Source of the DNA: Macrocystis pyrifera
Lineage: Eukaryota; Sar; Phaeophyceae; Laminariales; Laminariaceae
Direction: 5' to 3'
Length of the DNA: 64,000 bases
Assembly: GCA_031763025.1 (NCBI GenBank)
Contig: JASSKH010000007.1
Span: 6,649,930-6,713,929 of the forward strand
The position numbers were made by a program, and so were the translations under genes. Under the pieces are notes generated by a model. It was not told where the DNA came from and ran no database searches. It saw only the letters and a list, made by a program, of their open reading frames with translations. Below, in pieces: positions 48,101 through 51,100 of this stretch (positions within the stretch are counted from its first letter, which is position 1; each line of letters opens with the position of its first letter).

Positions 48101-51100
48101 TCGTGTCATCAATCATCTGACGATAAAATCAAGACGCATGCTACAGTAAAAGTGCACCATTTTTTTTTTCTGAGGCTCCTCACTTGACCTTAAGGAGCTC
48201 CATACCTCACCCGAAAACTGACGTCAGCAAAAATCAAATTGCACGCCGATGGATAACTCCACGGCCCCAATTGTACGAGTAGGTCGTTTGCCGAAACAAG
48301 ATTGGTATTCCCCGACGATTTTGGGGTGAGGAGCCCCCGTCATTCCGAGAACATTTTAGCGGAAATGTGCCCCCTCTCTCGTTGGACGCGTCTCGATCAC
48401 GTCATCAACCATCTGACGATAAAAATCAACCGTGTCATCAACCATTCGACGGGAAAATCAACCATGCCATCGACCATGTCATCGACCATGCCATCGTCCA
48501 CGTTATTTGACCGTGTCAGTAGACCATGTCGTCAACCATATCATCACCCCATGTCGTCAATGTTGTCACCACCCCTCATGTGATCAACGATGCCACCATG
48601 ACATCAACCACAACATCCACCATGCGGCCAATCGTGTCACCATGCCACTAACGATGCACTTTTTTTTTTTTTTTTCGTTTTTCGTTTTTTCGTTTTCCGC
48701 TTTTCGTTTTGTTCTTGTTCTGTTCTGTGTGTTTTCCGCGATCGCGCTGTGTGGGGACGGTCGTTCGTATCTGTGGCAACCGTTTCAAGGGCACGAACGC
48801 TGTGGTGGCAGTGATTTCGTACACGGGGTTCGACATGGAAGACGCCATGATCCTCAACAAGAGCAGCTTCGAGCGGTAAGTGCAGCAAAACTGTCTACTA
48901 ATAGTAATCTCGGCACACGGACCACCGGTGGGGTGTAGGGGGGGGGGGGGGGGGGGGGGGAGCGTACTCATTTGTTGCTTGATTGCCTTATTCATTTGAC
49001 CATTGACCGCGCATCCCTTTCGAGACGGAGCACCGCCGTTCCTACTCCTAATTGAGACACCTCCAACAATTGGGCCCTCATTACCTTGTTTCCATGTATT
49101 ACATGGAAAAACTTTTCGCTAATCTTATCCCCTTCCTGTTTGGCTGCCTGTGGCCACCATCTATCTCCTAGGATAGCGATCGTTTTCTCGCTGCTATCCA
49201 GTGTATCAAACTCCTCCGTGTCATATTCGTCTATTTCCCTCATCTCTTCTATGACGGGAGGTCATAGTACATAGAACCAAATATTGTCGGTAAAAATAGG
49301 TATATATACAGGTTTTTGTTTGTACCGTGGGTCCTATTTACTATGGTCCCCCGTAATAACACATCCCGTTCTTCCTTGTACATTTCACATTCTCCTACTA
49401 TGTGAGTTCTACTTTCTATTGCTTTGCCACAGGGGCACATCTGTGCGTCTATTTCCTCCTCCTCCTGGCTACTGGTATATCTCTTTCTTCTTTCTGGCAG
49501 GTCCAGGTCACCTACACGAACTCGCAGTTCCAGCGCTTTTGCGAAGTCCATTGGGCCGTGCAAATACGTTTTCATTCCTATTCCTTCGCTCAATCCCCCA
49601 TATATGTTTTAAATTTTTTTCCGATTTCACCTTGTTTATTAGCGCTAGCCTTTCCCTTCTCTCTATCCTTTCTTCTACTTCTGCCTTGTACCTCCCAAAC
49701 TTCCCGGCGGACGTCTCCTCTCCTTGGTTTCCCCCTATTTCCTTCCGTACTTTCTCAACTACGCCATCCCACTTTTTCCAGCCTGCCCTTTTTTGCTTTT
49801 CTCCCATACAGCTCTATCAACTATGGCTGACAACCTCTTTTTTGGCACGTTCCTTACTTTAGATTGCCATTTCAACTTTCTCGTGTCTCTATTTGTCGTG
49901 AGTGGGTGCATTCCCAGTTCTGCTCTTAGTACTGTATTACTAGTCGTACTTGAGCATCTTGGGATTTTTTTAGCTGCTGTCATCTGTACCGTTTCCACCT
50001 GTTTTACAAGTTTCGCGTTCCCTTCCCATACTTCTCCTGCATATTCTAGCTTTTGTACTATCACATTCATGAGGATACTTCTCTTAATCCTAGTGCCAAG
50101 GTGCGAGTCTGTTAGGATCGCATCCATCTTGCCTACTTGTGCTTTACCCTTTCCTATTATTTTTGCTATATATGTATCCCAAGGGCAGTCTTTTGAGATC
50201 TCTGCGCCAAGGTACGTGTACTGGTCTACGATCGGCAATTCAGGAATTGGGGTGGGTTTGGGCTATGGATCTGTGACTCTATAAATGGCGCTGTCTACTG
50301 CTGTAGCCTATTGATGGCTATATTGATGCCTTCGTCTACTGCAGCCAAGAAATAGCGCTATGAATGGTTCCGCCTACTGTACGGTAGCTACCTAGGCATC
50401 AATATTGCGTCCCCGGCGGCTTGGTAGGTGGTCCGCGTGCCTATCAAGATCAATTTCGTGGGTTCGAGTCTCACCCAGTGCATGCTCGTAGGGACTTTTT
50501 TTTGTGTAAAAAAATGATTAGCGGAAAGCGCGAGAGCGTGAAATAGCCACATTCGATGAATATCGACGAGCAGTGGGAATGCTGAACCCTTCTGTATGCG
50601 CGACAAACAAATGAAGGCACGTACCGGGGGGGAGAAGGGACGACACCTGTGACCACGGCTTGTGCAGAAGATCGCTGAGGGTAAAACCTCCTGCGAGTTA
50701 GGCTGGAAAGTAAAAGTGATGATTAAAAAAAATATACATATATAATACAAGGTTCCCCTCCGGGAGGTGCCTAGGGAGTGGCGCGAGAGCGAAATAATAC
50801 TCGTATTAAATCCTGCACACCTGTTTAGAAGTAGTATACTTGCATCCACCCATCATTTTAACGTGAAGAACACACACATATTTTTGAGGACATACTATTA
50901 CACTGCTGTTTGCGGAACTAGTGTGGGGTCATTACTACAATAATATAAAATAGGGTATCGGCAAGTGGATATATTGATCCAGATGACTCGCGGCGATCAA
51001 ATCAGTGTATGCGGCGTAACGTAAGTACAAAAAAATTGCGAGCGGTCGAGGTTGCGCCACAATACTTTGTGACCGGCTGAGTAAGGTACAGCACATACAT

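Follow-up and report, generated by a model that had tools for sequence, protein, structure and literature searches.

The window studied here, a stretch of 64,000 nucleotides of Macrocystis pyrifera DNA, holds a LINE and copies of a second repeat, family B, that run into tracts of C at their 3' ends. This raises the question of whether the C run is a tail carried by the elements, the site into which they insert, or both. The LINE and its parts in the window are as follows:
48964..50242, minus strand: 5'-truncated, frameshifted LINE with the end of the reverse transcriptase (RT) ORF and a zinc-knuckle-like CPCG..H..C stretch (BLAST, protein relatives)
48964..49029, minus strand: terminal ~66 nt of the LINE, the coding end of the ORF, shared with family B; the family stop codon lies inside AAATGAGTAC
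48938..48960, minus strand: C23 adjoining the LINE 3' end, a G run on the plus strand (sequence reading)
49251..49362, no strand: stretch holding a MITE-like repeat inserted in the LINE; this repeat family served as control (self-BLAST)
18735..18798, minus strand: short LINE tail copy nested in a C run, immediately after the C22 with which the B copy at 18832-19103 ends

When the C-terminal frames of the LINE were joined and used as a protein query, 46 relatives were returned, among them proteins of Ectocarpus and Sphacelaria. A Pfam search of the window LINE gave no family above cut-off and two unrelated families below theirs, and the first 14 kb of the window and 48.0-49.5 kb, read in one frame each, gave no Pfam match. 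In LINE protein P0002, the RVT_1 domain was recognised by Pfam (E 2.3e-32), and Exo_endo_phos (PF03372) was found in the LINE at locus L063 (E 5e-13) with a query joined from pieces in three frames. By these predicted domains, an RT and an AP-type endonuclease, the LINE is an AP-endonuclease non-LTR retrotransposon, and analogy with a brown alga suggests that it belongs to the RTE or RTE-X clade. P0002 was matched at at least 71 places in the genome (537,376,219 bases in 223 contigs). The longest LINE copy spans 4.7 kb and carries endonuclease and RT pieces; identity to the reference LINE is ~94-98% in the main copies and falls to 74% in shorter, older ones. A search for a divergent second LINE family with probe P0013 returned, by inspection, mostly the same places again. 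Comparison of P0002 with genome contigs (17 stretches) and viral contigs (1 stretch) gave none that was confirmed. A 16-mer of the LINE tail occurred in 13 viral contigs, judged from the word length to be chance, and the exact B-tail pattern occurred in none.

The tail of the window LINE reads ...AAATGAGTACGCT, followed by C23. The tail was present in the DNA of 29 of 30 LINE loci, usually in the form ..AAGGCAAGCAACAAATGAGTACGC(C)n. At the protein level, TKASNK formed the C-terminal end in 5 of the 21 fetched relatives and TKASNN in one; the remaining relatives had an earlier stop, another end, or a run-on into the C tract as prolines. The 3' end of the LINE lies only 4-6 nt past the stop codon and, because the TGA of the reference copy sits inside AAATGAGTAC, what family B shares as a tail belongs to the coding sequence of the LINE. 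A trait of RTE and RTE-X elements, a 3' UTR reduced almost to nothing and a simple repeat next to the stop codon, is present in the LINE as ..AACAAATGAGTACGC(C)n.

The tail common to both elements had been proposed from the sequence alone, and was recovered in a local alignment of the LINE and B consensus sequences with a score of 46, against 27 for the best of 2000 shuffles. Outside the tail, no stretch of B matched the LINE with an E value below 1. Family B carries the 3' tail of the LINE, as the partner in a SINE/LINE pair does; the sharing therefore stands as proposed, but the tail is the coding end of the LINE and not a 3' UTR, the stop codon lying inside AATGAGTAC. Family B is about 540 bp long, and all 14 positions named for it in the sequence-only reading were recovered by BLAST of the window against itself:
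13339..13865, plus strand: near full-length B, C9 at the 5' side and a C tract at the 3' side (BLAST)
18832..19103, minus strand: 5'-truncated B, C29 directly at the 5' end and C22 at the 3' end (BLAST)
19401..19549, plus strand: 5'-truncated B, C11 at the 5' junction (BLAST)
19601..20129, plus strand: near full-length B behind the C tail of the B copy at 19401..19549 (BLAST)
20176..20435, plus strand: B copy preceded by the C tail of the one at 19601..20129 (BLAST)
21728..22117, plus strand: B copy with CCCCCCATCCCCCCC at the 3' end (BLAST)
24276..24837, plus strand: B copy whose tail is repeated as a 78-bp tandem array, C15 upstream and C12 at the 3' end
30808..31341, minus strand: full-length B, used as reference, C8 at the 5' end and C19 at the 3' end
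32622..32839, plus strand: B copy whose C tract then holds a second B tail of ~48 nt, followed by C15
36172..36282, minus strand: B tail copy preceded by another tail remnant and ending in a C tract
57122..57188, plus strand: B tail copy with C26 at the 3' end, in a site rich in C and T
57574..57681, minus strand: B tail copy with CCCCGCCCCCCCC at the 3' end
59686..59872, minus strand: B copy into whose tail a MITE-like repeat is inserted; at 59280 there is a tail remnant with GGGTACCCCC
62920..63212, minus strand: B copy, C11 at the 3' end

Thirteen of these 14 copies run into a tract with at least four C residues, and the copy at 59.7 kb is cut by the inserted MITE-like repeat. Scanned for a pol III-type SINE origin, by which the 5' part would derive from tRNA, 5S or 7SL RNA, the window showed no tRNA with ARAGORN and nothing in Rfam that reached the gathering score. 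Two tail forms, ..GATAATGAGTAC and ..GAGATCGAGTACATCTCTCCTATCGAGTAC, were seen among the B copies at 18832-20435, and the extra stretch of the second form is predicted to fold as a hairpin. The units of the 78-bp array (24450-24837) follow one another without C runs between them.

Homopolymers behind the 3' ends were counted genome-wide for exact tails on the forward strand only; on the reverse strand, gapped patterns count one place several times. CCCCCC was found within 6 nt of 1814 of 2071 LINE tails (87.6%) and of 992 of 1241 B tails in one of the two tail forms (79.9%). The check behind LINE tails covered C and A, and AAAAAA followed 0 of the 2071 forward-strand tails and one on the reverse strand. 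For comparison, a run of at least seven C residues occurs in 3.9% of random 60-mers of the window. Neither of two outcomes set beforehand as counting against the earlier claim, absence of similarity in the tail and C tracts no commoner than at random, occurred, and a 3' tail shared by the LINE and family B and ending in a C run is confirmed.

The 5' side was analysed in the window and 42 loci selected for the LINE, 320,980 bases after 8 loci inside longer versions had been dropped. This sample held 68 LINE and 65 B chains, of which 52 LINE and 63 B copies had a 3' end and both flanks. The stretch scored extended from 40 nt upstream to 6 nt inside the element, counted from BLAST ends that may be off by some bases. 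A run of at least eight C residues stood at the 5' side of 35 of 52 LINE and 30 of 63 B copies, 65 of 115 together, in a sample in which young and nested copies are over-represented because the loci are the best LINE hits; an equally long G run stood there in none of the 115, the C run lying on the strand of the element alone. At random sites outside the elements each kind of run was found in 1.3%, so that the insertion without sequence specificity described as an RTE trait was not seen here. C runs of this length flanked 31 of 52 LINE and 20 of 63 B copies on both sides, a majority only for the LINE; a target repeat on both sides of the insert, as in simple-repeat-specific LINEs, was thus found. 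The control MITE-like family in the same sequences had such a run at 0 of 72 5' flanks and 2 of 72 3' flanks. Six further B copies were fetched in pieces, and four of them had at least eight C residues before the 5' end (L067, L068, L072 and L074). The window, unlike the other loci, was not chosen for LINE hits in this way; taken alone, it showed such a 5' run at 6 of 18 B units (the 18 include 4 tandem units) and at 1 of 2 LINE copies. Only CCCAAACCCACCCC was present at the 5' side of the LINE at 48964..50242.

These counts bear on the idea that the C run is a tail and nothing else. As in ordinary RTE elements, it would be a short repeat that the RNA bears and RT slippage lengthens, and insertion would not be sequence-specific. 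C runs at the 3' end are the rule, as that idea would have it, and RTE elements with repeats behind the stop and non-specific insertion are described in the available part of PMC2887409; the 50 of 115 copies without the 5' run (17 of 52 LINE, 33 of 63 B) also speak for it. Against it, copies with no older tail found upstream had at least eight C residues at the 5' side in 30 of 56 cases (15 of 26 LINE, 15 of 30 B), and a G run of that length in 0 of 56, and the C run forms part of duplications. A tail-only origin is accordingly considered very unlikely.

The duplications were recognised from bases that follow the 3' C run and are found again after the 5' C run, either ahead of the element or at its beginning (L033, L056, L025, L062, L049, L041 and L052). 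The clearest were CnACCGATTTTGT at L033, CnTCGTAACT at L056, CnACCCGAGC at L025 and CnGAGGTGAT at L062. A C run followed by the same word of at least 5 nt was present on both sides of 12 of the 106 copies with a C tract, compared with a mean of 3.6 and a maximum of 9 in 300 random re-pairings; four of these words contain no A (L059 twice, L061, L053), and one belongs to the array of B copies in the window. For the LINE alone the figures were 7 of 51 (re-pairings: mean 1.3, maximum 5); family B alone, with 5 of 55 (mean 2.3, maximum 6), showed no clear excess. Among the further B copies, a C run and word stood on both sides at L066/L067 (AAAGC) and L074/L075 (GCCGT). With the 5' C run included in full, the duplications measure ~16-23 bp; those lying wholly inside a C run cannot be seen. 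Where a duplication was seen the C run was a pre-existing target, because the duplicated word stands between the run and the element. Addition of the run to the end of the element was rejected on the same arrangement. Poly(C) as a tail, as the sequence-only reading had it, was upheld; poly(C) as a tail only was considered and rejected, given C runs at the 5' side and within duplications.

Taken from sequence, the LINE and family B are probably an autonomous retrotransposon and its non-autonomous partner, with poly(C)/poly(G) tracts as their insertion sites and target-primed reverse transcription as the mechanism. In such a process, the LINE endonuclease would nick the G strand of a C tract, at the tract's left edge or close to it. 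The ...GGGG-OH end released by the nick would pair with the C tail of the RNA and prime reverse transcription, the LINE RT would pick RNAs with the shared terminal element, a predicted three-way junction, and the top strand would be cut some bases beyond the tract. Old C tails could then serve as new insertion sites. The fuller proposal, which we hold to be somewhat better than an even chance, is that of an AP-endonuclease LINE specific for homopolymer poly(C)/poly(G), in which the C tail would be primer, RNA mark and landing pad at once and directional, self-seeding arrays would spread C tracts. The target homopolymer of L1 pairs with the poly(A) tail of its RNA. The kelp LINE would share this geometry with C in place of A; unlike L1, it has a specific tail shared with a partner, and its targets would be long tracts. 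The mammalian L1 site is given as TT|AAAA in the part of PMC13295347 available.

Priming on poly(G) could also occur with the endonuclease unused, if G-rich tracts, fragile for example because they form G-quadruplexes, broke and the RT started from the broken end. Annealing of poly(G) to the C tail would work at any break, and the LINE endonuclease is known here from its sequence; duplications of the length given above nevertheless suggest staggered nicks, and the LINE encodes an AP-type endonuclease (the PF03372 match of the joined pieces). Capture at breaks is therefore regarded as unlikely, and insertion by target-primed reverse transcription at nicked C tracts is preferred.

The orientation of neighbouring elements was consistent with insertion into C tracts. 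LINE and B neighbours within 80 bp had the same orientation, head to tail, in 50 of 50 pairs, of which 4 belong to the 78-bp tandem of the window and 1 is an internal duplication. Up to 1000 bp, 60 pairs had the same and 8 the opposite orientation, and beyond 1000 bp the numbers were 9 and 11; neighbours of the control MITE-like family were divided 11 to 11. Genome-wide, LINE tails facing each other within 30 bp were sought with exact 13-nt words and none was found. Head-to-tail arrays might instead arise without insertion into C tracts, either in a single event by template jumping, when the RT, having copied one RNA, continues on the C tail of a second, or through unequal exchange. The strict direction of close neighbours agrees with this, and the tandem at 24.5-24.8 kb is a duplication of that kind. 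The LINE inside a B tail at L062, however, has its own duplication of the C run and following bases, and 5' C runs are present at copies without an upstream element; an origin of the arrays by jumping or exchange is judged very unlikely, and insertion into existing C tracts is retained.

It had also been suggested that the elements could explain the abundance of C/G tracts in the window, and this held in part. In the LINE-selected set (43 sequences), 100 of 154 tracts of at least 12 C residues abut the end of an element on the same strand, 0 an end on the opposite strand and 54 neither. Within the window, 9 of 32 such tracts abut a LINE or B end, and one more, at 32840, comes after a B tail whose short length kept it out of the count; the remainder have no LINE or B end. 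Tracts without such an end may be unused targets. Very long C/G tracts (~86-147 bp), at 28114-28260, 55832-55917, 56096-56205 and 63823-63945, are not adjoined by any LINE or B end; they may be unoccupied targets, or other families may end there.

Single-sequence folds of the LINE tail and both B tail forms predicted a three-way junction, closed by pairing of GUGCUC with the terminal GAGUAC, with two hairpins inside, and ending just before the C tail. Pair probabilities of the closing stem were 0.95-0.99 for the LINE and 0.70-0.75 and 0.82-0.85 for the B forms. The proportion of paired cells was 97.3% in 35 LINE copies and 90.9% in 53 B copies, compared with 28-48% when the structure was slid, the structure having been derived from the same sequences used to score it. 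The fold energies were little better than those of shuffled sequences (z -1.87, -0.75 and -0.09), and compensatory changes were few (0 cells for the LINE, 4 for B). RNAalifold gave no structure for the joint alignment of LINE and B tails and different pairs for B alone, and the B tail with 10 nt of upstream sequence folded without the closing stem. The modelled three-way junction is a suggestion and not a result.

Comparison with known systems was made from partial texts. Lepidopteran LINEs of the RTE clade have a simple repeat right behind the stop codon, and their insertion is called not sequence-specific (PMC2887409, in part). The kelp LINE resembles them in its AP endonuclease and RT, an almost absent 3' UTR, the repeat adjoining the stop and abundant 3'-terminal fragments. 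It differs in that the lepidopteran repeats, often di- or trinucleotides, lie between the duplications, and so did not pre-exist according to the part of PMC2887409 available, whereas the kelp C run lies inside the duplications where these were seen. In Ectocarpus, RTEX-N1 is an abundant non-autonomous element of ~600 bp with a 5' region of unknown origin and a 3' end shared with the RTE-X LINEs RTEX-1 and RTEX-2 (PMC12477816, in part). The kelp pair is alike in coming from a brown alga and in having a partner, of ~540 bp, that shares the LINE 3' end, and because the Ectocarpus case is in print a tail shared by a LINE and its partner is not new in brown algae. No poly-C or homopolymer term occurs in the main text of PMC12477816, the terminal motifs of its Fig. 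1C and the supplements standing apart from that text. Togen, which inserts on (TG)n, is likewise found in a simple repeat; it is treated with NeSL relatives and differs in belonging to a restriction-like-endonuclease clade, and no homopolymer C target was found among the simple-repeat-specific LINEs in the accessible part of PMC4640811. Partners in stringent SINE/LINE pairs carry the LINE tail, for which stem-loops are predicted (PMC3747384, in part); the kelp tail differs in being LINE coding sequence and in ending in poly(C).

A poly(C) end or target of a LINE was not found in the titles and opening parts of abstracts of the open-licence literature searched. Within that limited literature, the shared 3' tail is of a known kind and the poly(C) target is apparently undescribed. 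If true, it would add a homopolymer to the known targets, probably in a clade (RTE/RTE-X) not known for site specificity, and would connect the choice of target by a LINE with its recognition of its own RNA and with the abundance of C/G tracts in this genome. With a one-base target that pairs with the RNA's own tail, the priming step of target-primed reverse transcription could be studied in a simple setting, and the genome's tolerance of thousands of tail copies might be explained in part by landing sites that renew themselves. In annotation, insertion ends in genomes of this kind would be marked by C tracts.

The surroundings of the LINE were also examined. Exons of RPA2, the second-largest subunit of RNA polymerase I, lie on the plus strand at 47750-48880 and in the flanks, separated by long repeat-filled introns; the joined exons match RPA2 (best PDB hit E 5.2e-16), with exons and splice sites read by eye. 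The LINE at 48964..50242 lies antisense in an RPA2 intron, ~60 bp behind the apparent 5' splice site. The MITE-like repeat at 49251-49362 recurs at 46926-47035 and elsewhere, with 73 copies in 321 kb and ends like TATTACGGGGGACCATAGTAAATAGGACC, and similar ends look expanded beside a G or C run at 39219 and 55400. A further repeat, at 50392-50545 on the plus strand, has a tRNA-like B box (GGTTCGAGTCTC) and a T run, with a second copy on the minus strand; these are its only 2 copies in 321 kb, and neither has a run of at least eight C residues at its ends.
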